Source: Halomonas alkalicola | GTDB taxonomy: Bacteria > Pseudomonadota > Gammaproteobacteria > Pseudomonadales > Halomonadaceae | Assembly: GCF_030704205.1 (NCBI RefSeq) | Contig: NZ_CP131913.1 | Location: 2,852,001 to 2,916,000 of the forward strand | Direction: 5' to 3' | DNA length: 64,000 nucleotides | Shown here: positions 5,062-27,725 of the stretch, one piece after another | How positions within the stretch are numbered: the first letter of the stretch is position 1 | How the letters are laid out: each line of letters starts with the position of its first letter | Made by a program: the position numbers and the translations under genes | The notes under the pieces: generated by a model | Database searches by the model: none | The model's input: the letters and a program-made list of their open reading frames with translations, nothing else | What the model was told of the DNA's origin: nothing

Positions 5062-6567
5062 TCAGCCGTGGCTCTCTGGGGCCTGGGTCGGGGGGGGGGC
5101 GTCGCCGGCGCTCTTGGTCAGGCGGAACTCGGAGCAGCGCGCCGGGGTGGGAATGTTCTTGCCCGGGTTGAGCAGCTCGTCGGGGTCGAAGGCGCGCTTG
5201 GCGGCCCGGAAGGTGGCGAGCTCGCCGGGGCTGAACTGAACGCACATCTGGTGGATCTTCTCGCGACCCACCCCGTGCTCGCCGGTGATGGTGCCCCCCA
5301 CCTCGACGCACAGCTCTAGGATGCGCCCGCCGAGCTCCTCGGCGCGCTCGAATTCACCGGGCTGGTTGGCATCGAAGAGGATCAGCGGATGCATGTTACC
5401 GTCGCCGGCGTGGAAGACGTTGGCCACCCGCAGGCCGTACTCCTCGCCCAGATCGCCGATGCCTTTGAGCACCCGGGCCAGCTCGCGGCGGGGAATGGTG
5501 CCGTCCATGCAGTAGTAGTCCGGGGACATGCGGCCCACCGCCGGGAAGGCGTTCTTGCGCCCGGCCCAGAACAGCGCGCGCTCGGCCTCGTCGCGGGCCT
5601 GCTGGATGCCGGTGGCACCGGCCTGCTCCAGCACGCGGCGCACCGTTTCGCAGTCGTCGTCCACGTCTGCCTCGACGCCATCCAGCTCGCAAAGCAGGAT
5701 CGCCTCGGCCTCCACCGGGTAGCCGGCGCCGATGAAGTCCTCGGCGGCGCGGATCGCCAGGTTGTCCATCATCTCCAGGCCCCCGGGGATGATGCCCGCG
5801 GCGATGATGGCGCCCACGGCGTTGCCGGCCTTCTCGATGTCGTCGAAGCTTGCCATCAGCACCTTGGCGCTCTCCGGCTTGGGCAGCAACTTGACGGTCA
5901 CCTCGGTGACCACACCGAGCATGCCCTCGGAGCCGGTGAACAGGGCGAGCAGGTCGAAGCCGGGGGCGTCCAGGGCGTCGGAGCCGAGCGTCATGCGCTC
6001 GCCCTCGATGGTCAGCACCTCGACCCGGATCACGTTGTGCACGGTCAGTCCGTACTTCAGACAGTGCACGCCGCCGGCGTTCTCCGCCACGTTGCCGCCG
6101 ATGGAGCAGGCAATCTGGGAGGAGGGGTCCGGGGCGTAGTAGAGCCCGTAGGGCGCCGCCGCCTCGGAGATCGCCAGGTTGCGCACTCCGGGCTGGACCC
6201 GGGCGGTGCGCGCGTCGGGGTCGATCTCGAGGATGCGGTTGAAGCGCGACAGCACCAGCAGCACGCCGTGTTCCAGCGGCAGGGCGCCGCCGGAGAGGCC
6301 GGTACCGGCGCCGCGGGTCACCACCGGCACGCCCAGGGCGCGGCAGCGCTTGAGCAGGGTCTCGACCTGCTCGAGGGTCTCGGGCAGGGCGACCAGCATC
6401 GGCAGGGCGCGGTAGGCGGAGAGGCCGTCGCACTCGAAGGGACGCAGGTCCTCCTCGCGGTGCAGCAGGGTCATGCCGGGGAGTGCCTGGCGCAGGTCGG
6501 CGAGCACCTCGGCGGGGTCGCGCTGGGTCACTTCGCCATCGAGTCGTTCATCGAAGAGGGTGTTCAT
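5062..6567 (-). CDS. glcD: glycolate oxidase catalytic FAD subunit GlcD
   Basis: 501 residues. The N-terminal FAD_binding_4 domain has TRGAGTGLSGGALP. The C-terminal FAD-oxidase domain carries HAGDGNMHPLI and GEHGVGREK, the flavin and metal motifs of the GlcD/D-lactate dehydrogenase family. It oxidises glycolate to glyoxylate. Its place as first gene of glcDEFG supports GlcD over a D-lactate dehydrogenase. The start ATG follows a CTCCGGAGT ribosome site. The upstream 190 bp hold an IclR-like operator and a terminator of the preceding permease gene, so this operon likely has its own promoter. Confidence 0.96.
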   Translation of the reverse strand: MNTLFDERLDGEVTQRDPAEVLADLRQALPGMTLLHREEDLRPFECDGLSAYRALPMLVALPETLEQVETLLKRCRALGVPVVTRGAGTGLSGGALPLEHGVLLVLSRFNRILEIDPDARTARVQPGVRNLAISEAAAPYGLYYAPDPSSQIACSIGGNVAENAGGVHCLKYGLTVHNVIRVEVLTIEGERMTLGSDALDAPGFDLLALFTGSEGMLGVVTEVTVKLLPKPESAKVLMASFDDIEKAGNAVGAIIAAGIIPGGLEMMDNLAIRAAEDFIGAGYPVEAEAILLCELDGVEADVDDDCETVRRVLEQAGATGIQQARDEAERALFWAGRKNAFPAVGRMSPDYYCMDGTIPRRELARVLKGIGDLGEEYGLRVANVFHAGDGNMHPLILFDANQPGEFERAEELGGRILELCVEVGGTITGEHGVGREKIHQMCVQFSPGELATFRAAKRAFDPDELLNPGKNIPTPARCSEFRLTKSAGDAPPPTQAPESHG

Positions 6568-6616: not shown

Positions 6617-6653
6617 TATGAAAATATTTTCCATTTATCCATGGAAAATTATT
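6617..6653 (-). promoter_or_regulatory. IclR-like operator region of the glcDEFG promoter
   Basis: The 17-mer TATGAAAATATTTTCCA (6617-6633) contains a 15-bp palindrome close to the E. coli IclR consensus TGGAAATNATTTCCA. A second element, TGGAAAATTATT, lies at 6642-6653. On the coding strand of glcD a TACAAT -10-like box overlaps the edge of the palindrome, as expected for a repressor site. The same two elements occur in front of gcl (18520-18594). The regulator gene is not in this window. Confidence 0.6.
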
Positions 6654-6703
6654 CTATATGAAGCGGTATCGGCTCTGTTCTGGAGGGCGTTCGGCGGAAA
6701 ATG

Positions 6704-13196: not shown

Positions 13197-13205
13197 TGTA
13201 TACAA
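13197..13205. promoter_or_regulatory. GntR-type operator in the uraD/uraH divergent promoter
   Basis: AAATGTATACAAAA contains the palindrome TGTATACA. It is 57 bp before uraD and 104 bp before uraH and could serve both. The probable regulator is the GntR protein encoded at 15094. Confidence 0.6.
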
Positions 13206-15093: not shown

Positions 15094-15828
15094 ATGAGTC
15101 AGCGCCATATCGAGAGCCAGCGCAAGGCGTCGGGAAGCGGACGCGGCAAGGACGGCGACGGCGCCGAGCGTCACGAGGCCATCTATCGCTCGATCAGCGA
15201 TGCGATCATCGAGCACCGGCTCAAGCCCGGCGCCCGCCTGCGTGAGGATGCCCTCGCCGAGGTGTTCGGCGTCAGCCGCACCGGTATCCGCAAGATCCTG
15301 CAGCGCCTGGCGCTTGAGCAGCTGGTCACCCTGACCCCCCGCCGCGGGGCCAGCGTCACGCGCCCCACCGCCGACGAGGCCAAGGATGTCTTCGATGCCC
15401 GCCAGATGGTGGAGTGCGGCCTGATGCCCGAGGTGGCCCGGCGCATCACCACCGAGGAGGCGGGCGAGCTGCGTCTGCTCAGCGAGCGCGAGCAGCGGGC
15501 GGTGAAGGAGGGGGAGCATAGTGCGGGCATCCGCCTCTCCGCGGAGTTCCATACCCGCCTGGCCAGGGTCTCGGGGAACGCTACCCTGGCCGAATTCGTC
15601 GGCCGGCTCTGTTCGCGCTCCTCGCTGATCCTCGCCGTCTATGGCAATGCCGGCCATCTGGGTTGCGAGACCCATGATCATGATGCCCTGATCGCATGCC
15701 TGGAGGCCGGTGAAGGCGAAACGGCGGCCGCGCTGATGTCGCAGCACCTGAAAGCCGTGGAGGCCACGCTCTCCATGGTGGAGGAGGAGGAGGAGGCTCC
15801 CGACCTGCAGGCCATCTTCGCATCCTGA
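15094..15828 (+). CDS. GntR-family (FadR/FCD) regulator of urate catabolism
   Basis: 244 residues. The N-terminal winged helix contains LREDALAEVFGVSRTGIRKI and RRGASVTRPT; an FCD ligand-binding domain follows from about residue 95, with helical Asp/His metal-type positions. It probably senses a purine or allantoin intermediate. Evidence for local control is its position between puuD and puuE and the TGTATACA sites at the surrounding promoters, including its own. A second, related regulator is encoded at 27813. A highly charged N-terminal leader (residues 1-27) precedes the domain. Confidence 0.88.
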   Translation: MSQRHIESQRKASGSGRGKDGDGAERHEAIYRSISDAIIEHRLKPGARLREDALAEVFGVSRTGIRKILQRLALEQLVTLTPRRGASVTRPTADEAKDVFDARQMVECGLMPEVARRITTEEAGELRLLSEREQRAVKEGEHSAGIRLSAEFHTRLARVSGNATLAEFVGRLCSRSSLILAVYGNAGHLGCETHDHDALIACLEAGEGETAAALMSQHLKAVEATLSMVEEEEEAPDLQAIFAS

Positions 15829-18519: not shown

Positions 18520-18594
18520 TATGAAAATATTTTCCAGTATTCGTTGACGGCGCGCCGTTTCGGTCCTAATCTCGATATACAAAATAATTTTCCA
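18520..18594 (+). promoter_or_regulatory. original gcl promoter with IclR-like operators
   Basis: The 17-mer at 18520-18536 is identical to the glcD operator at 6617-6633. A promoter follows: TTGACG (18544-18549), a 17-bp spacer and TAATCT (18567-18572). The 12-mer AATAATTTTCCA (18583-18594) is the second element shared with glcD. The region lies after the allA terminator and is cut off from gcl by the IS66 copy that begins at 18596. Confidence 0.65.
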
Positions 18595-18595
18595 A

Positions 18596-20144
18596 GTAAC
18601 TATTCAGCACCGGTTGGCTGAGTCGGGGCTTCTTGCTGCATGAAGGCTGGCACCTCCCCCGCAAACAGTTGCTCCAGTGCGGTATGCGCCGCTACCCCTT
18701 GCTTGACGGCGGTCGAGAGAAAGCTACGCATGCGGCAGAAGATCTCAGCACCCTCCCAGGAGCGGAAACAGCCCGAGATTTTCTGCTGGACCTTGGTCAT
18801 TCGCAGATCGCGCTCCCCCTGGTTGTTGGTGAAGGGAGCGGCAGGGTCGTCGAGGAAGCGCAACACGTCGTCCTCGTACGCCTGGAGGCGTTCCAGGAGG
18901 TTGCGCGACTTGGTGCGCTTGGCCCGGCCTCGCGTTCCAGGTGGCGGTTTCACCGGCGGGGGGCACTCGGCGTCCCCTTTCGCCAGGCAATCTCGATAGC
19001 GCTGCCGCCCAGGCTCGGGTCTCATCGGCCGAGAGGCAGCCGTCGGCCACCTCCACGGCGCGATGCATCTCCAACAACAGGTCATGCAAGGCCTTGGCCC
19101 ATGCCTGGCCATCGTTCTCCCAGGCCGCTGTCAGCTCCCGAAGGTGGTGCGCATTACAGAGCGCGTGCCGGCAATCCGGATAGCGGTAGTAGGGCTTCCA
19201 GTGATCATGCACCAGCACGCCACGCACGAAGGGCAATACGCCGATGGCGTCCATCGCTTCCTGGCCGCGCTTGGGGTGCGGGGCCAACCAGGTCAGGGCC
19301 TCGTTGGAGGCGCTGTGTAGCCAGTAGCGTTTGCCACCGACCTGCATTCCGGTTTCATCGGCATGGACGGTGGCTGCTTCACGTAGCGCCGGGATCACCC
19401 ACTCGGCGAACGCCTCGGCCCGCTGGTAGGCCTCCTGGTTGAAGGCGAACAGGGTGCCGGTGCTCAGCGACAGGCCGCACTGCGAGGTGAGCAACTCGCG
19501 GATATACGCGCATAGGGCAACAGCTGATACTGGGAGAGATAGACGACATGCGCCTTGAGGCGAGGGCCATACTGGATGGGGCGAGTCACGCCCTCGGGGA
19601 ATGGCGCCACGTAGCGTTGCCCCTGATCATCTTCGAGGACCTCAGCCTGATATTCGGTGACCACGGCCTGGATTACGATGTCCTGCACTTGGCGCGTTTC
19701 GACGCCGACCGGGCGGTAAGAACGCCCCTTGGGGAGTTGCCGACGATCGACACGGAGCTTGACCACCTCGTCGGGGTCCGTCACCGGCGCCAACGTCTTA
19801 CCCTCATGCCCTGGCTGTCCGCCGGGGCGCCGCTCGCCTTTGGCGCGCGAGCGGCGCTGGCGATTGGGATCCTGGGACGGTGGCTTGCTGCTGTTGCGGC
19901 TACTGGTGGCCAGGCGATCGGCCATGAGCTTGACCAGCAGCATCAGCACATCGATGGCGGCACGCAGCGACGGCGAGACCGTCTGGTCTTCCTTGAGCTG
20001 CTGCCGGACCCGCTCCAGGGCCTCGTCGACGTTGATATCGCTGATGGTCATATCACCGCATAGGTGTGCCGAATGATGCTGTGCACTATGCCAGAAAAAT
20101 CAGCTGGTTGGCGATACCCCATCCGCAGCCACCTGAATAGTTAC
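18596..20144 (-). mobile_element. IS66-family insertion sequence, copy A
   Basis: 1549 bp bounded by perfect terminal inverted repeats GTAACTATTCAG/CTGAATAGTTAC and flanked by an 8-bp target duplication TTTTCCAA (18588-18595 and 20145-20152), as expected for IS66 elements. Only a TnpC-type transposase is present (no TnpA or TnpB), as in the ISBst12 subgroup. It is nearly identical to copy B at 46503-48053, differing by four small indels. It sits between the gcl promoter and gcl, with its transposase antisense to gcl. Confidence 0.95.
18600..20051 (-). pseudogene. tnpC: IS66 transposase, frameshifted (copy A)
   Basis: The reading frame is broken twice relative to copy B: a 2-bp TA insertion at about 19502-19506 (after LLPYARI) and an extra C in a CCC run at about 19008-19010 (after ADETRAW). 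The protein pieces show the IS66 zinc-finger region, [29 protein letters not shown] and [12 protein letters not shown], which carry the DDE-type residues. A full-length enzyme of about 483 residues would result if both indels were removed. Confidence 0.88.
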
Positions 20145-20182
20145 TTTTCCAAAAACAAAATCCCTCACTGGAGGATCCCGTC

Positions 20183-21958
20183 ATGGCCCGCATGACCGCT
20201 GCAGAAGCCGCCGTTCACGTTCTCAGGAAGGAAGGCATCGAGGTCGCTTTCGGGGTGCCCGGCGCCGCCATCAACCCCTTCTACGCCGCCCTGCGCCAGG
20301 TGGGGGGCATCGACCATATCCTCGCCCGCCACGTCGAGGGCGCCTCCCACATGGCCGAGGGCTATACCCGGACGAAGGCCGGCAATATCGGGGTGTGCGT
20401 CGGCACCTCCGGTCCCGCCGGTACCGACATGATCACCGGGCTCTATTCGGCCAGCGCCGATTCCATCCCGATCCTCTGCATCACCGGCCAGGCGCCCCGC
20501 CCCCGGATGCACAAGGAGGACTTCCAGGCGGTGGATATCCAGGCGATCGCCGGCCCCGTCACCAAGTGGGCGGTCACCGTGCTGGAGCCCGCCCAGGTGC
20601 CGCGGGTCTTCCAGCAGGCCTTCCACCTGATGCGCTCCAGCCGCCCGGGCCCGGTGCTGATCGACCTGCCCATCGACGTGCAGATGAGCGAGATCGAGTT
20701 CGACCCCGACACCTACGAGCCGCTTCCCGCCTTCAAGCCCCGTGCCACCCGTGCCCAGGCCGAGAAGGCCATCGCCATGCTGCAGGCGGCCGAGCGCCCG
20801 CTGATCGTGGCCGGCGGCGGCATCTTCAACGCCGACGCCAGCGACCTGCTGCTCGAGTTCGCCGAGCTCACCGGGGTGCCGGTGATCCCGACCCTGATGG
20901 GCTGGGGTGCCATCCCCGACGACCATCCGCTGATGGCCGGCATGGTGGGGCTGCAGACCTCCCACCGCTACGGCAATGCCACCCTGCTCGCCGCGGACTT
21001 CGTGATGGGCATCGCCAACCGCTGGGCCAATCGCCACACCGGCAACGTCGAGACCTACACCCGGGGCCGCACCTTCGTGCACGTGGACATCGAGCCGACC
21101 CAGATCGGGCGCATCTTCGGGCCGGACTACGGCATCGTCTCCGACGCCCGGGCGGCGCTCGAACTCTTCATCGAGGTGGCCCGCGAGCTCGACGCGGCCG
21201 GCCGGCTCAAGCGCCGTGGCCGCTGGGCGGAGGAGTGCCAGGAGCGCAAGCGCACCCTGCTGCGCAAGACCCACTTCGACAACGTGCCGGTCAAGCCCCA
21301 GCGGGTCTTTGAAGAGATGAACCGCGTCTTCGGCCGCAACACCCGCTATGTCAGCACCATCGGGCTGTCACAGATCGCCGGTGCCCAGTTCCTGCACGTC
21401 TATCAGCCGCGCCACTGGATCAACTGCGGCCAGGCGGGCCCGCTGGGCTGGACCATCCCGGCGGCCCTGGGGGTACGGCGCGCTGACCCGGAGGCCGAGG
21501 TGGTAGCCCTCTCCGGCGACTATGATTTCCAGTTCATGGTCGAGGAGCTGGCCGCCGGTGCCCAGTTCAACCTGCCCTGGATCCACGTGCTGGTGAACAA
21601 CTCCTACCTGGGGCTGATTCGCCAGGCCCAGCGCGGCTTCGACATGGACTACTGCGTGCAGCTCTCCTTCGAGAATATCAACTGCCCGGAGATCAACGGC
21701 TACGGAGTGGATCACGTCTCGGTGGTGGAGGGGCTGGGCTGCAAGGCGCTGCGCGTCACCCGGCCCGAGGAGATCGCCCCGGCGCTGGAGGAGGCCCGCC
21801 GCCTGATCGCCGAGCACCGCGTGCCGGTGGTGGTGGAGGTGATCCTCGAGCGGGTGACCAATATCGCCATGGGCACCGACCTGGACGGCGTGAACGAGTT
21901 CGAGGCCCTGGCCGAGAACCACGAGGATGCGCCTACCTCCATCGCCGCCCTCGTTTGA
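20183..21958 (+). CDS. gcl: glyoxylate carboligase
   Basis: 591 residues, a thiamine-diphosphate enzyme of the acetolactate synthase family. The segment [18 protein letters not shown] has Val51 where other family members have the catalytic Glu, the diagnostic feature of Gcl. The C-terminal ThDP domain has [14 protein letters not shown] and [11 protein letters not shown]. It condenses two glyoxylates to tartronate semialdehyde with release of CO2. The ribosome site GGAGG is only 38 bp from the IS66 end, so its native promoter is displaced by 1.5 kb. Confidence 0.97.
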
Positions 21959-22114: not shown

Positions 22115-22894
22115 ATGCCCAAGTTTGCCGCCAACCTCAGCATGCTGTTCACCGAGGTGGAGTTTCTCGACCGCTTCGAGGCCGCCGCCCGGGCCGGCTT
22201 CAAGGGAGTGGAGTACCTCTTTCCCTATGACTACCCGGCCGAGGAGCTCAAGCGGCGCCTGGACGCCAACGGCCTGACCCAGGTGCTCTTCAACCTGCCT
22301 GCCGGCGACTGGGCCGCCGGGGAGCGTGGCATCGCCTGCCACCCAGATCGCGTCGAGGAGTTCCGCGAGGGCGTTGAGCGCGCCATCGCCTATGCCCGAG
22401 TGCTGGGCAATACCCAGGTCAACTGCCTGGCCGGCATCAAGCCCGAGGGGGGGAGCGACGACCAGGCGCGCGCCACCCTGGTGGAGAACCTGCGCTTCGC
22501 CGCCGAGAAGCTCGCGGCTGCCGGCATCCGGCTGATCGCCGAGCCGATCAACACCCGGGACATCCCCGGCTTTTTCCTCAATCGCACCGAGCAGGCGCTC
22601 GCCATCTTCGACGAGGTGGGCAGCGACAACCTCAAGCTGCAGTACGACATCTACCACATGCAGATCATGGAGGGGGACCTGGCGCCGACCATGGAGAAGC
22701 ACCTCGCGCGCCTCGCCCACGTGCAGATCGCCGACACCCCCGGCCGCCACGAGCCCGGCACCGGCGAGATCCACTACCCCTTCCTGTTCGCCCATCTGGA
22801 CCGGCTGGGCTACGACGGCTGGATCGGCGCCGAGTACAAGCCGGCCGGCCGCACCGAGGAAGGGCTGGGCTGGCTGGACGCGGTGCGGAGCTGA
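22115..22894 (+). CDS. hyi: hydroxypyruvate isomerase
   Basis: 259 residues, an AP-endonuclease-2 type TIM barrel. It begins PKFAANLSMLFTEVEFLDRF and contains LIAEPINTRDIPGFFL, LQYDIYHMQIMEGDL and HVQIADTPGRHEPGTGEI, with the metal-binding Glu, Asp and His residues of Hyi. It interconverts hydroxypyruvate and tartronate semialdehyde. It is the second gene of the gcl-hyi-glxR set. Confidence 0.95.
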   Translation: MPKFAANLSMLFTEVEFLDRFEAAARAGFKGVEYLFPYDYPAEELKRRLDANGLTQVLFNLPAGDWAAGERGIACHPDRVEEFREGVERAIAYARVLGNTQVNCLAGIKPEGGSDDQARATLVENLRFAAEKLAAAGIRLIAEPINTRDIPGFFLNRTEQALAIFDEVGSDNLKLQYDIYHMQIMEGDLAPTMEKHLARLAHVQIADTPGRHEPGTGEIHYPFLFAHLDRLGYDGWIGAEYKPAGRTEEGLGWLDAVRS

Positions 22895-22983
22895 GAGCGC
22901 TGTTCATAGCGAGAGGCGCCGGAACAGCCTCGCGCGGTAAGTAGCCTTCTAGCCAGGATGACAACGACAAGAGGAGAGTGACG

Positions 22984-23886
22984 ATGAGCAAGATTGGATT
23001 TATTGGCCTCGGCATCATGGGCCGCCCCATGGCGGGCCACCTGCTGGACGCCGGCCACGAGGTCGTTACCGTCAGGCGCGGCACGCTGGACGCCACCCTG
23101 GCCGAGAAGGGCCTGCGCGAGCTCGATAGCCCCGCGGCGGTGGCCGCCGAGGCCGAGGTGATCATCACCATGGTCCCGGATACCCCGGACGTCGAGGAGG
23201 TGCTGTTCGGCGAGGGGGGCGTCATCGAGGGGCTCAAGCCCGGCACCCTGGTGATCGACATGAGTTCCATCGCCCCCATCGCGACCCAGGGCTTCGCCAG
23301 GCGCATCCATGAGGCGGGCGGCGAGTACGTCGACGCCCCGGTCTCCGGCGGCGAGGGCGGGGCCATCAATGCGGCCCTGACCATCATGGTGGGCGCCACC
23401 GACGAGGGCTTCGAGCGCGCCCGCCCGATCCTGGAGGTGATGGGCAAGACCATCACCCATATCGGCGGCCATGGCGCCGGCCAGACCTGCAAGGGGGCCA
23501 ACCAGATCGTGGTGGCCCTGACCATCGAGGCGGTGGCCGAGGGGCTGCTGTTCGCCTCCAAGGCCGGTGCCGACGTGGCCAAGGTGCGCGAGTCGCTGCT
23601 CGGCGGCCTCGCCCAGTCGAAGATCCTCGACGTCCACGGCGCGCGCATGATCGAGCGCACCTTCGACCCGGGCTTCCGCATCCGGCTGCACCAGAAGGAC
23701 CTCAACCTGGCCCTCGAGGGGGCGCGCAGCCTCGACCTGGCGCTGCCCGGTACCGCCAACGCCCAGCAGCTGTTCCAGGCCTGCGCCGCCCTGGGCGGCG
23801 GTGACTGGGACCACGCCGGCATCCTGCGCGCCCTGGAAGCGCTGGCCGGCCATGAGGTCGGCCAGTCGCCGGCCAACCCGGCATGA
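22984..23886 (+). CDS. glxR: 2-hydroxy-3-oxopropionate (tartronate semialdehyde) reductase
   Basis: 300 residues of the beta-hydroxyacid dehydrogenase family: NAD(P)-binding GFIGLGIMGRPMAGHL, substrate loop DAPVSGGEGGA, and catalytic Lys in GAGQTCKGANQIVV. It reduces tartronate semialdehyde to D-glycerate. The ATG at 22984 follows GAGGAG; the GTG at 22978 is too close to that site. It is followed by two hairpins, one a strong terminator. Confidence 0.95.
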   Translation: MSKIGFIGLGIMGRPMAGHLLDAGHEVVTVRRGTLDATLAEKGLRELDSPAAVAAEAEVIITMVPDTPDVEEVLFGEGGVIEGLKPGTLVIDMSSIAPIATQGFARRIHEAGGEYVDAPVSGGEGGAINAALTIMVGATDEGFERARPILEVMGKTITHIGGHGAGQTCKGANQIVVALTIEAVAEGLLFASKAGADVAKVRESLLGGLAQSKILDVHGARMIERTFDPGFRIRLHQKDLNLALEGARSLDLALPGTANAQQLFQACAALGGGDWDHAGILRALEALAGHEVGQSPANPA

Positions 23887-24112: not shown

Positions 24113-24988
24113 ATGACCGCGATCTCATCCCCGGAGACACCGCTGCTGCCCTGCGAGGTCGATTCCCTCGCCTGGCTGCGCGAGCTGGCCGACACCGCCG
24201 TGGCCGCGGTGCACCCCGATGCCCTGCTCGAGGGGCAGCTGCCCGAGCCCCCCGCCGGGCGCACCCTGGTGGTGGGCGCCGGCAAGGCCGCCGCCGCCAT
24301 GGCCGCCGCCCTGGAGCGCGCCTGGCAGGCCCACCATCCCGAGGCCCCGCTCTCGGGGCTGGTGGTGACCCGCTATGGCCATGGCACGGCCTGCGAGCGC
24401 ATCGAGGTGCTCGAGGCCTCGCACCCCATGCCCGACGACCCTGGCTTCGCCCGGGACGAGACCCGGGTGCTGGCGCGTGCGGCGGACGCCCTCGAGGCCG
24501 CCCGCGCCGCCGCCGAGGCGGCCGGGGTCGAGGTGCGCCTGCTCGGCGATGACCTGGAGGGCGAGGCCCGCGAACTCGGCCGCGCCCAGGCGCGCCTGGC
24601 GCTCTCCCTGCGCGACGTGCCGCGGGACAGGCCCCTGCTGCTGCTCTCCGGCGGCGAGACCAGCGTCACCGTCACGGGCCACGGCCGCGGCGGGCGCAAC
24701 GTCGAGTACCTGCTGGGGCTCTTCGAGGCCCTGCGCGGGGCCGAGGGCATTCACGCCCTGGCCGTCGACACCGACGGCATCGATGGCTCCGAGGACAATG
24801 CCGGTGCGCTGTTCGGGCCCGACGACTGGCACCGGGCCGAGGCGCTGCGTCTCGAGGCGCGCGATTACCTGTCACGCAATGACGCGTATACTTTCTTCCA
24901 GGCGCTCGACCGGCTGATCGTGACCGGGCCGACGCGCACCAATGTCAACGATTTCCGTGCCATTCTGGTCTTGCCGAGGACACCATGA
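24113..24988 (+). pseudogene. ttuD: glycerate 2-kinase / hydroxypyruvate reductase (MOFRL family) with internal deletion
   Basis: 291 residues against about 420 for the family. The N-terminal part (TLVVGAGKAAAAMAAALE, LVVTRYGHG, ASHPMPDDPG) and the C-terminal MOFRL part (LLSGGETSVTV, GRGGRNVEYLL, DTDGIDGSEDNAGAL, VTGPTRTNVNDFRAI) are both good. They join directly near 24475-24495. Missing is the region of about 130 residues that normally holds the glycine-rich SGGGS loop, the catalytic Lys segment and SDVPGD. The frame is preserved across the join. Activity is therefore unlikely. The stop overlaps the pyk start (ATGA). Confidence 0.8.
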
Positions 24989-26482
24989 CGCTTCCCCCCC
25001 ACGCCCCCATCCATGACCCCATCCGCCGCACCAAGATCGTCGCCACCCTGGGCCCGGCCAGCGATCGCGAGGGCGTGCTGGAGGCCATGATCGCGGCCGG
25101 CGTCGACGTGGTGCGCCTCAACTTCTCCCACGGCTCCCCCGACGACCACCGCCAGCGCCTGACGCCTGACCCGGGTGCGCGAGATCGCCGACCGCCTGGG
25201 CCGGAGCGTCGCCGCCCTCGGCGACCTCCAGGGGCCCAAGATCCGCATCGCTCGCTTCGCCGAGGGCGCCGTCGAGCTCGCCGAGGGTGCCCCCTTCGTG
25301 CTCGACATGGCCCTCGACGGCAACGCCGGCACGCCGGAGCGGGTCGGCTGCGACTACCAGCAGCTGATCGACGATGTCGCCCCGGGCGACCGCCTGCTGC
25401 TCGACGACGGCCGGGTGGTGCTCGACGTCACCGCCGTCGAGGGGCGCGAGGTCCACACCACCGTGGTGGTAGGCGGCAGGCTCTCCAACAACAAAAGGGC
25501 ATCAACAAGCAGGGCGGCGGCCTCTCGGCTCCGGCGCTCACCGACAAGGACCGCGCCGACCTCGCCACCGCCGTGGCGATCGGCGTCGACTACCTGGCGG
25601 TGTCGTTTCCGCGCAGCGCCGCCGACATGGCCGAGGCCCGCGCGCTGCTCGGCGAGGCCGGGCGCGAGATCGGCCTGGTGGCCAAGCTGGAGCGCGCCGA
25701 GGCCGTGGCCTGTGAGGCGACCCTGGACGGCATCATCGAGGCCTCTGAAGCGGTGATGGTGGCCCGCGGCGATCTCGGCGTGGAGATCGGCGACGCCCAG
25801 CTGATCGGCATGCAGAAGCGCATCATCAAGCGCGCCCGCACCCTCAATCGGGCGGTGATCACCGCCACCCAGATGATGGAGTCGATGATCGAAGCGCCGC
25901 TGCCCACCCGGGCCGAGGTGTTCGACGTGGCCAACGCCGTGCTCGACGGCACCGACGCGGTGATGCTCTCCGCCGAGACCGCCGCCGGGCGCGCTTCCCG
26001 GTGGAGACCATCGAGGCCATGGACCGGGTCTGCCTGGGGGCGCCGAGCGGGAGAGGGTCGCCCAGGCCTCCGGCCACCGCATCCACGAGGGTTTCTCGCG
26101 CATCGACGAGACCATCGCGCTGTCCGCCATGTATGCCGCCAACCACCTCTCGGGCGTGGCGGCCATCGCCTGCATGACCTCCACCGGCTACACGCCGCTG
26201 ATCGCCTCGCGGATCCGCTCCGGCCTGCCCATCGTCGGGCTCGCCCACAGCCCGGTGGCGCAGCGGCGCATGGCGCTCTACCGTGGGGTGGTCTCGCTAC
26301 CCTTCGATACCCAGGACATGGCCCCCACCGAGCTCAACGACCGGGCGCTGGCGCTGCTGGTGGAGAAGGGCATCGCGACGGAGGGGGATCACGTGATCCT
26401 GACCCGGGGCGACCACATGAATGCCCATGGCGGCACCAATACCCTGAAGATCCTCGACGTGAACGAGCGGCATGTCGGCTGA
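24985..26482 (+). pseudogene. pyk: pyruvate kinase, multiply frameshifted
   Basis: All parts of a pyruvate kinase are present in order: RRTKIVATLGPASD, VVRLNFSHG, LGDLQGPKIRI, the metal/substrate segment VAKLERAEAV, VMVARGDLGVEI, ATQMMESMIEAPLPTRAEV and the C-terminal domain ending RHVG. The frame is broken four times: a 7-bp tandem duplication GCCTGACGCCTGAC (25157-25170), an AA insertion near 25494, a GC insertion near 25990 and a 2-bp insertion near 26041. Without them it would be about 494 residues. In pseudomonads gcl-hyi-glxR-ttuD-pykF is the usual order, which this locus preserves in decayed form. Confidence 0.88.
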
Positions 26483-27725
26483 GCCGGGCGAGCACCGCCC
26501 GGACCCGCTCGCCGATGAGTTCCCGGGAGACAAGGGCTGCCCGGAAACCGGCCGCGGGCTGCTTGCCGGTATCAGCCTGCCGGCGGCGGTGGTCCGTGAG
26601 GCGCCGCTGGCCCACAACCTGATCTGGATGCGGCGCTTCGCCGAGGCGCGCGGGGCGCACCTGGCGCCCCACGGCAAGACCACCATGGCCCCGGCGCTCT
26701 TCCGGCGCCAGCTCGAGGCCGGCGCCTGGGGAATGACCCTGGCCACCGCGCCCCAGTGCCGGGCCGCCTTCGCCCACGGCATCAGGCGCCTGCTGCTGGC
26801 CAACCAGCTGGTGGGCGAGGCCAACATGGCGATCGTCGCCGGGCTGATCGAGGCCGGCGCCGAGCTCTTCGTGGTGGTGGATGGCGAGGCGAACGTGGCG
26901 GCGCTGGACCGCTACTTCGCTGCCCGCGGCCTGCGTCTCCCCGTACTGATCGAGCTCGGCATCCCGGGCGGGCGCTGCGGCTGTCGCAGCGCCGAGGCGG
27001 TGCTGGCCCTGGCCGAGCGGGTGAACCAGGCGCCGGCGCTGCTGCTGGCGGGCCTCGAGGGCTACGAGGGGGTGGTGTCGGGCGACGACCCGGAAGGGGC
27101 GGTGCGCGCCTACGCCCGTGAGCTGGTCACGGCGGCCCATACCCTGGCCGGGAAAGGCCTGTTCGAGCGCGAGGTACCGCTGGTGACCGCCGCCGGTTCG
27201 GCCTGGTACGACCTGATCGCCGAGGCCTTCCACACCCTGGCGCCGTCCCAGGCCTTTGCGCCGGTGCTGCGCCCGGGCTGCTATGTGGTGCACGACCATG
27301 GCCTCTACGCCGAGGCCCAGCGCCACCTGCTGGCCCGCGAGGGCGAGGCGGAGGGGCTGCGCCCGGCGCTGGAGGTGTTCGCCCAGGTGCAGTCGCTGCC
27401 GGAGCCGGGCCTGGCCATCGTCGCCATGGGGCGGCGCGACGTGGGCGGCGACCGCATGCCGCTGGCGCTGCGTCGCTACCGCGAGGGGGGCGACCCGGCG
27501 GCGGTGCTCCCGGTGGCAGGCTGGGAGGTGGTCAAGCTGATGGACCAGCACGCCTTCGTGCGCCTGCCCGAGTCGGCCGGCGACATGGGCGTGGGCGACG
27601 TGCGCGTAGGCGATATCGTCGCCTTCGGGGTCTCCCATCCCTGTCTCACCTTCGACAAGTGGCGCGCCGTGCTGCGGGTCGACGACCGGCTCGAGGTGCA
27701 GGAAGTGATGGCCACCTGCTTCTGA
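26472..27725 (+). CDS. DSD1/D-threonine aldolase-type PLP enzyme
   Basis: 417 residues. An alanine-racemase-type N-terminal barrel carries the PLP lysine in LAPHGKTTMAPALF. The C-terminal D-serine-dehydratase-like domain carries FGVSHPCLTFDKW, with the His-Cys pair used for metal binding. Relatives are D-threonine aldolases, D-serine dehydratases and 'amino acid deaminases'; the exact substrate is not fixed by sequence. Its start overlaps the end of the pyk frame by 11 bp, so it may depend on the same transcript, and it is followed by its own GntR regulator gene. Confidence 0.85.
   Translation: MSAEPGEHRPDPLADEFPGDKGCPETGRGLLAGISLPAAVVREAPLAHNLIWMRRFAEARGAHLAPHGKTTMAPALFRRQLEAGAWGMTLATAPQCRAAFAHGIRRLLLANQLVGEANMAIVAGLIEAGAELFVVVDGEANVAALDRYFAARGLRLPVLIELGIPGGRCGCRSAEAVLALAERVNQAPALLLAGLEGYEGVVSGDDPEGAVRAYARELVTAAHTLAGKGLFEREVPLVTAAGSAWYDLIAEAFHTLAPSQAFAPVLRPGCYVVHDHGLYAEAQRHLLAREGEAEGLRPALEVFAQVQSLPEPGLAIVAMGRRDVGGDRMPLALRRYREGGDPAAVLPVAGWEVVKLMDQHAFVRLPESAGDMGVGDVRVGDIVAFGVSHPCLTFDKWRAVLRVDDRLEVQEVMATCF

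Follow-up and report, generated by a model that had tools for sequence, protein, structure and literature searches.

A putative IclR-type operator shared by glycolate, glyoxylate and pyruvate dehydrogenase promoters in the Halomonadaceae

Introduction

Several regulators act at the branch of bacterial metabolism where glyoxylate, glycolate and pyruvate meet. In Escherichia coli, IclR and AllR are repressors. DNA binding by E. coli IclR and by BhcR of Paracoccus denitrificans is described as weaker with glyoxylate and stronger with pyruvate, and that by AllR as weaker with glyoxylate (PMC11323563). The same source gives gcl and allS-allA as the places of reported AllR binding, and describes BhcR as activating the beta-hydroxyaspartate cycle, its putative site lying ahead of the -35 element. 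Pyruvate dehydrogenase in E. coli is controlled by PdhR (PMC7660256), and in Pseudomonas fluorescens the RpiR-family protein RccR, whose consensus palindrome is TGTAGT/ACTACA, controls aceEF, glcB and aceA (PMC5489143). In Pseudomonas aeruginosa, the GntR-family protein UgmR binds upstream of gcl and the allantoin genes and represses them, urate relieves this repression, and what mediates the induction of gcl by allantoin is described as not yet known (PMC12694930).

To relate these systems to the Halomonadaceae, we analysed a 64,000-nucleotide stretch of the Halomonas alkalicola chromosome (genome positions 2852001-2916000; henceforth the window) together with its whole genome, as one of 101 genomes of the family. 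The starting point was a prediction, made from the letters of the window alone, that an identical operator precedes the glcDEFG and gcl operons and that one IclR-type repressor may control both. We find that the shared sequence is very probably the operator of a single regulator of the IclR/AllR/BhcR clade, with boxes at gcl, glcDEFG, glcB, aceE and the regulator's own gene.

Results

Exact searches of the window recovered the 17-mer TATGAAAATATTTTCCA at 6617-6633 and at 18520-18536, both on the plus strand, as well as the 12-mer AATAATTTTCCA at 18583-18594 (plus strand) and its reverse complement TGGAAAATTATT at 6642-6653, so that both shared sequences lie where the original prediction had placed them, one copy of each per promoter. 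No further copy of the 17-mer was found in the window at up to 3 mismatches, and none appeared in 100 dinucleotide shuffles. The whole genome (one contig of 3,611,010 bases) contained the exact 17-mer twice and a further 3 sites with 3 mismatches, compared with 1 for the reversed control pattern; this genome scan had been proposed as a check, and one of the three next-best copies (1985367-1985383) precedes the gene for malate synthase G (glcB). The palindrome within the 17-mer, TGAAAATATTTTCCA, had been said to lie two positions away from the E. coli IclR consensus, and indeed positions 3 and 9 depart from TGGAAATNATTTCCA, the consensus that Table 1 of PMC8222616 gives.

We then described the box by a weight matrix trained on the gcl boxes of 28 relatives, with the studied genome left out, and took thresholds from 2688 first-order resampled sequences (7.87 bits at the 1% level and 12.72 bits at the 0.1% level). 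Over the window, this matrix gave three sites above the 1% threshold, at 6619 (22.4 bits), 6642 (13.4 bits) and 18522 (22.4 bits). Two of them belong to the glcD promoter, both on the minus strand: box A (6619-6633; minus-strand sequence TGGAAAATATTTTCA) lies 51 bp upstream of the glcD ATG, and box B (6642-6656; plus-strand sequence TGGAAAATTATTCTA), which is second and weaker, contains the shared 12-mer. The gene itself (glycolate oxidase subunit D; 5062-6567, minus strand) scores above the cut-off of NCBIfam model NF008408 and is followed by glcE-, glcF- and glcG-like open reading frames, named by translation only, which extend down to 2263. Downstream of the IclR box, the glcD promoters of many relatives also carry a TGGTC-N2-ACCA-type element, which we take to be GntR/FadR-like and which was not seen in the glcD upstream region of the studied genome.

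The third site is box 1 of gcl (TGAAAATATTTTCCA; 18522-18536, plus strand), located 7 bp upstream of the -35 element of the ancestral core promoter (18544-18572, plus strand; TTGACG at 18544-18549, a 17-bp spacer and TAATCT at 18567-18572). A half-conserved box 2 (CAAAATAATTTTCCA; 18580-18594, plus strand) reaches only 3.4 bits. The original prediction had spoken of an "original" gcl promoter, and the wording is apt: an IS66-family insertion (18596-20144; 1549 bp, PF03050, with 12-bp inverted ends GTAACTATTCAG and CTGAATAGTTAC) now separates gcl from its ancestral promoter, bordering on the weaker second box, and has left an 8-bp target duplication (TTTTCCAA; 18588-18595 and 20145-20152). Behind it lie gcl (glyoxylate carboligase; 20183-21958, plus strand; TIGR01504) and, at 22115-23886 on the same strand, hyi (hydroxypyruvate isomerase; TIGR03234) and glxR (2-hydroxy-3-oxopropionate reductase; TIGR01505), all above the cut-offs of their models. 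The insertion has probably disconnected the operator from gcl in this strain, and gcl itself may have left the regulon here. The minus-strand transposase frames of the element (19464-20051, 18745-19494 and 18600-19112) appear interrupted, so the element may be inactive. Farther along, a pyruvate kinase-like gene (24985-26622), located after a glycerate kinase-like gene, seems split over frames (25175-25756, 24985-26622 and 26129-26482), possibly by a frameshift or a sequencing error.

The genome encodes a sole IclR-family protein, at 2007849-2008670 and hence outside the window. A second proposed check was to look for an IclR-family gene near another copy of the site, and the promoter of this very gene carries one (TGGAAGTGATTTCCG, 12.2 bits). 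Defining the family by an IclR_C effector domain combined with an N-terminal winged helix-turn-helix, the protein is a member (PF01614, E 2.6e-50), and it aligns over nearly its full length with E. coli IclR (44.6% identity) and AllR (42.9%); its best PDB matches are the effector domains of AllR (1tf1) and IclR (2o99). Its highest-scoring NCBIfam model is the BhcR equivalog NF045644 (345.3 bits, below the cut-off of 350), and it also stays below the cut-offs of the IclR (NF008601; 281.2 versus 380 bits) and AllR equivalogs (NF007548; 232.3 versus 406 bits). Judged by its sequence, the regulator belongs to the IclR/AllR/BhcR clade. Using the positions of the IclR pocket residues from Table 1 of PMC11323563, we found four of the five residues that contact ligand oxygens (G160, A161, D212, S239 and S241) to be identical, with A161 replaced by V (I in BhcR). 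In the hydrophobic patch, M146 and L220 are kept (2/4 identical to IclR), L143 is M as in AllR, and L154 is A.

An orthologue of the regulator (72-100% identity) was present in 63 of the 101 family genomes, with a 47% relative in 3 more. Among genomes with the orthologue 29/63 carry gcl, compared with 0/38 of those without, so all 29 gcl-bearing genomes have the regulator. In 16 of these 29, iclR lies 9-22 kb from gcl; the remaining 13 have it at a greater distance or on a different contig. In one such genome (G049) the order, with names given by translation, is pyrB-like, iclR, uraD-like, uraH-like, urate-oxidase-like, GntR, further genes, allE-like, allA-like and gcl; the order in G008 resembles it from iclR onward, and the uraD-like gene adjoins iclR in both. 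In the studied genome, iclR is flanked by an enoyl-CoA hydratase-like gene on one side and a MarR-like gene on the other (again named by translation) and lies away from gcl, yet a pyrB-like gene is found within 4 kb of it, which fits a rearrangement.

To quantify the box across the family, we counted sites within 350 bp upstream of each gene at the 1% level, at which 3/224 reversed sequences also pass. The studied genome was scored with its gcl promoter at the ancestral place, before the insertion, and gave 22.4 bits at gcl, 22.4 and 13.4 bits at glcD, 21.2 bits at glcB, 16.2 bits at aceE and 12.2 bits at iclR. The gcl box was found in 29/29 genomes, 28 of which form the training set. For glcD, a box was present in 52/61 genomes with the orthologue (45/53 outside a genus that we call g4 and 7/8 within it) and in 0/8 without; for aceE (pyruvate dehydrogenase E1), the figures were 37/63 (36/55 outside g4 and 1/8 within) and 1/29. 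The glcB box occurred in 12/12 chosen genomes, with at least 12.9 bits and 65-97 bp upstream of the start codon, but all 12 carry the orthologue, which leaves this count with no negative set. By contrast, aceA (isocitrate lyase) had a box in 0/12 chosen genomes, all with the orthologue, and was rejected as a target. Fisher tests gave 2.9e-6 for the glcD box, 1.5e-7 for the aceE box and 4.8e-8 for the presence of gcl, values that are too small because the genomes share descent.

These counts have a defined scope. The glcD upstream regions come from 69 of 74 matching genomes, after dropping G006 and G037 (split genes) and G008, G044 and G078 (58-65% identity, possible paralogues); those of aceE come from 92 of 101, leaving out G042, G050, G065, G072, G076, G082, G086, G094 and G097, and the one of G098 is only 131 bp long. 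The sets without the orthologue include genomes with the 47% relative (G016 for glcD; G016, G017 and G037 for aceE). The 350-bp limit also misses sites, such as an exact box about 377 bp before the aceE start in G005.

At the regulator's own gene, only 27/55 promoters outside g4 (and 0/8 within it) pass the gcl-trained matrix because the iclR boxes are variant. The variant form, TGGAA-N5-TTCC[A/G], precedes iclR in 53/55 genomes outside g4 and in 0/8 within it, the own-promoter box expected of an autoregulated gene. In 80 named loci (two of them from one contig) it was found in 77, and the loci contain only 82 matches of this kind over their entire 1.41 Mb; matches to the gcl matrix at 12.72 bits numbered 5, of which 2 lie within 200 bp before iclR, 1 at 243 bp and 2 elsewhere. 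The pattern has exceptions that count against the proposed regulon: the eight g4 genomes retain the regulator but lack the iclR box (0/8) and nearly always the aceE box (1/8), and outside g4 the box is missing at glcD in 8/53 orthologue-bearing genomes, including G099 and G052 of the same genus as the studied strain, and at aceE in 19/55.

We used E. coli as a yardstick for what the matrix recognises. In 9 kb around allR-gcl, its only hits were the gcl (25.4 bits) and allS-allA (20.2 bits) boxes, and in 12 kb around aceBAK-iclR it found the iclR box (20.3 bits) and two weak hits (9.0 and 8.4 bits). A matrix built from Halomonadaceae gcl promoters is thus able to pick out three E. coli boxes (gcl, allA and iclR), and its A/T-rich palindrome TGGAAA-N3-TTTCCA qualifies as an operator of IclR/AllR type. 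The aceB site of E. coli IclR reached 4.8 bits, under the threshold, and together with the missing aceA boxes this indicates that the classical IclR target is not shared. Control of the glyoxylate bypass from an operator at aceA or aceBAK was not seen in the 12 genomes examined, where the box is found at glcB (12/12) and not at aceA (0/12).

The position of the boxes bears on whether the regulator represses or activates. By eye, they lie upstream of the -35 element at gcl (6-8 bp in 29/29 genomes), iclR (about 5 bp) and aceE (about 12 bp); at gcl the -35 is TTGAC in 26/29, with a weaker hexamer, picked by eye, in G081, G089 and G099. Such positions would suit activation, as by BhcR, and are equally open to interference from upstream. 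We consider the chances even that the regulator is mainly a BhcR-like activator at gcl, aceE and iclR, a reading that is compatible with a single IclR-type reader of the box and that gains from BhcR, the best-scoring model, being itself an activator whose putative site precedes the -35. Against it, both E. coli relatives, IclR and AllR, are repressors, the spacing differs between gcl and aceE by about half a turn, and two boxes have repressor-like positions. The first of these is the glcB box, which by eye follows a TAGCAT-like -10 in several relatives and could lie between TTTACA and CAAAAT in the studied strain; as it overlaps the putative core promoter either way, it fits repression, which is the most likely sign at glcB given where the box lies. 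The second is the TTTCCA-type box after the gcl -10, found in 8/8 gcl-bearing genomes of the strain's own genus (5/8 over the 1% threshold; 3.4 bits in the strain itself, 7.7 in G052 and 3.3 in G099) and in 0/21 others, all of which score below -6 bits. This would be compatible with a tetramer that represses by bridging two sites. Of the predicted IclR-type repressor shared by both operons, comparison supports the IclR-type reader, while the repressor part is weakened by a gcl box position that would suit activation too.

A different reader of the box has also been considered. The purine cluster of the window contains a GntR/FCD regulator gene (15094-15828, plus strand), by position a candidate counterpart of UgmR (PA1520), and given that, in P. 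aeruginosa, UgmR is reported to bind ahead of both gcl and the allantoin genes (PMC12694930), this UgmR/GclR-like protein, or a GlcC-like one, might bind the shared box and co-control both operons. We regard this as improbable. The motif GTATACAA occurs at 13198, 15036 (before the GntR gene) and 15881, beside purine-pathway open reading frames (named by translation), and is a candidate UgmR-type operator; an exact GTATAC follows the gcl -10 in 11/29 gcl-bearing genomes, separate from the TGGAAA box; and the TGGTC-N2-ACCA-type element beside the box in many glcD promoters is distinct again, whereas the box itself matches IclR/AllR operators. The separate GTATACAA motif in particular sets the GntR protein apart as a box reader, and it is instead a possible second input at gcl.

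Still less probable, to the point of being very unlikely, is an RpiR-family reader, as in Pseudomonas, where the RccR targets aceEF, glcB and aceA (PMC5489143) overlap the target set found here; an RpiR-like gene does lie between the purine genes and gcl in G049. Searching the same upstream regions for TGTAGT-N3-ACTACA with up to 2 mismatches, we found this RccR/HexR-type palindrome at aceE in 65/92 and at aceA in 12/12 genomes, yet at gcl in 0/29, glcD in 0/69, glcB in 0/12 and iclR in 0/63; reversed sequences gave 1/92 for aceE, 1/69 for glcD and 0 for the other four sets. The two palindromes therefore divide these promoters and meet at aceE, and on these counts the TGGAAA box is not an RccR site. 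Moreover, the RpiR-like protein of G049 has no counterpart (E <= 1e-40) in the studied genome, G008, G013 or G052, all with a boxed gcl, while it is present in G030, G045 and G057, which have no IclR orthologue and whose glcD upstream regions lack the box, and on presence/absence as well as motif it was rejected as the reader. Finally, chance or local duplication, in which AT-rich sequence passed from one promoter to that of a nearby operon and no regulator is involved, would explain two copies 12 kb apart and identical over 17 bases. It is hardly credible given that their flanks differ, that 29/29 genomes keep the box at its place before gcl, that other genera have it at glcD, glcB, aceE and iclR, and that the matrix seldom matches strongly (5 times in the 1.41 Mb of named loci).

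The box was also sought beyond these promoters. A motif common genome-wide at unrelated genes would have spoken against the original prediction, and this was not what we saw: across 10 relatives we counted 32 exact symmetric boxes, compared with 0 for the reversed pattern, and several of these sites are without an obvious glyoxylate link. In the studied genome, 10 sites match TGGAAA-N3-TTTCCA with one mismatch, four of which are those at gcl, glcD, glcB and aceE. The site at 2679864 falls within a 525-amino-acid coding frame and was rejected as a target, and a brief look established no glyoxylate link at 534662, 1370699, 2398900, 3093146 or 3252511. At up to 2 mismatches there are 58 sites versus 29 for the reversed control, so roughly half of them may be chance.

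Some individual sites are worth recording. The one-mismatch box at 2398900 (TGGAAAGTATTTCTA; region 2396500-2401500 of the studied genome) lies upstream of an NMT1_3 (TAXI-type) receptor gene, a possible further target. An exact box precedes a DUF1499 gene, beside an endonuclease V-like gene, in three genera (G005, G008 and G049), with no known glyoxylate link. In G008 and G013 an exact box lies between a gene of the VOC/glyoxalase superfamily and an ABM-domain gene, and in G008 another is found upstream of a tenA-like gene followed by a thiC-like gene, neither with a clear glyoxylate link. Both the gcl product and pyruvate dehydrogenase require thiamine diphosphate.

Discussion

Comparison shows that the box exists and is conserved, that it occurs together with the regulator, and that it resembles operators of E. 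coli. We propose that the sole IclR-type regulator would bind TGGAAA-N3-TTTCCA before gcl, glcDEFG, glcB, aceE and its own gene, and that, as with E. coli IclR and P. denitrificans BhcR, glyoxylate would weaken and pyruvate strengthen this binding. One regulator at these promoters would place the oxidation of glycolate and of pyruvate, as well as both routes that consume glyoxylate, under a single sensor.

Like E. coli AllR, the regulator is of the IclR family, is associated with TGGAAA-N3-TTTCCA arms at gcl, keeps most of the glyoxylate pocket residues and, in 16/29 gcl-bearing relatives, is encoded near gcl and purine genes; unlike AllR (42.9% identity, 232 of 406 bits), its predicted targets include glcD, glcB and aceE, and its gcl box lies upstream of -35. 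With E. coli IclR it shares 44.6% identity, malate synthase as a type of target and a similar box at the iclR gene of E. coli (TGAAAATGATTTCCA, compared with TGAAAATATTTTCCA here), but it reaches only 281 of 380 bits, aceA is without a box, and the malate synthase here is of G type. BhcR is the closest NCBIfam model, likewise has a residue other than alanine at 161 and a site upstream of -35; the regulator nevertheless falls just under the model's cut-off, and in P. denitrificans BhcR controls the bhc genes while glycolate oxidase is under the GntR-type GlcR. RccR resembles it in scope, since one regulator links aceEF and glcB with opposite effects at different sites, but differs in family (RpiR), ligand (RccR is a KDPG sensor) and motif (TGTAGT/ACTACA). 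The UgmR (PA1520) system of P. aeruginosa likewise places a purine cluster and gcl under one regulator, and a GntR gene lies in the cluster here, but UgmR is of a different family and its counterpart would be a second input at gcl rather than the reader of the shared box.

The proposed regulon predicts that pyruvate dehydrogenase belongs with the glyoxylate genes. In the accessible portions of the literature around PMC11323563, PMC12694930, PMC8222616, PMC9755347 and PMC5489143, we found no description of pyruvate dehydrogenase under an IclR/AllR-type regulator. A more specific scheme, which we put forward as a speculation with rather less than even prospects, is a two-way switch in the Halomonadaceae: the IclR-type protein would read the pyruvate-to-glyoxylate balance, drive gcl, aceE and iclR from upstream of -35, block glcB and proximal-type glcD promoters over the core promoter, and share aceE with an RccR/HexR-type regulator that keeps aceA. 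If true, malate synthase and isocitrate lyase, two steps that RccR couples in Pseudomonas, would be split between two sensors, and the studied strain would be a natural loss of one arm through an IS insertion at the edge of the second gcl operator.

For P. aeruginosa, an IclR-type protein would be worth considering as the factor by which allantoin switches on gcl. Pseudomonas reaches a similar end via the unrelated RccR, which invites a comparison of the two protein families as separate answers to the task. For the Halomonadaceae, a family with biotechnology uses, the analysis assigns a putative reader, a box and a list of predicted targets to glyoxylate and glycolate metabolism.
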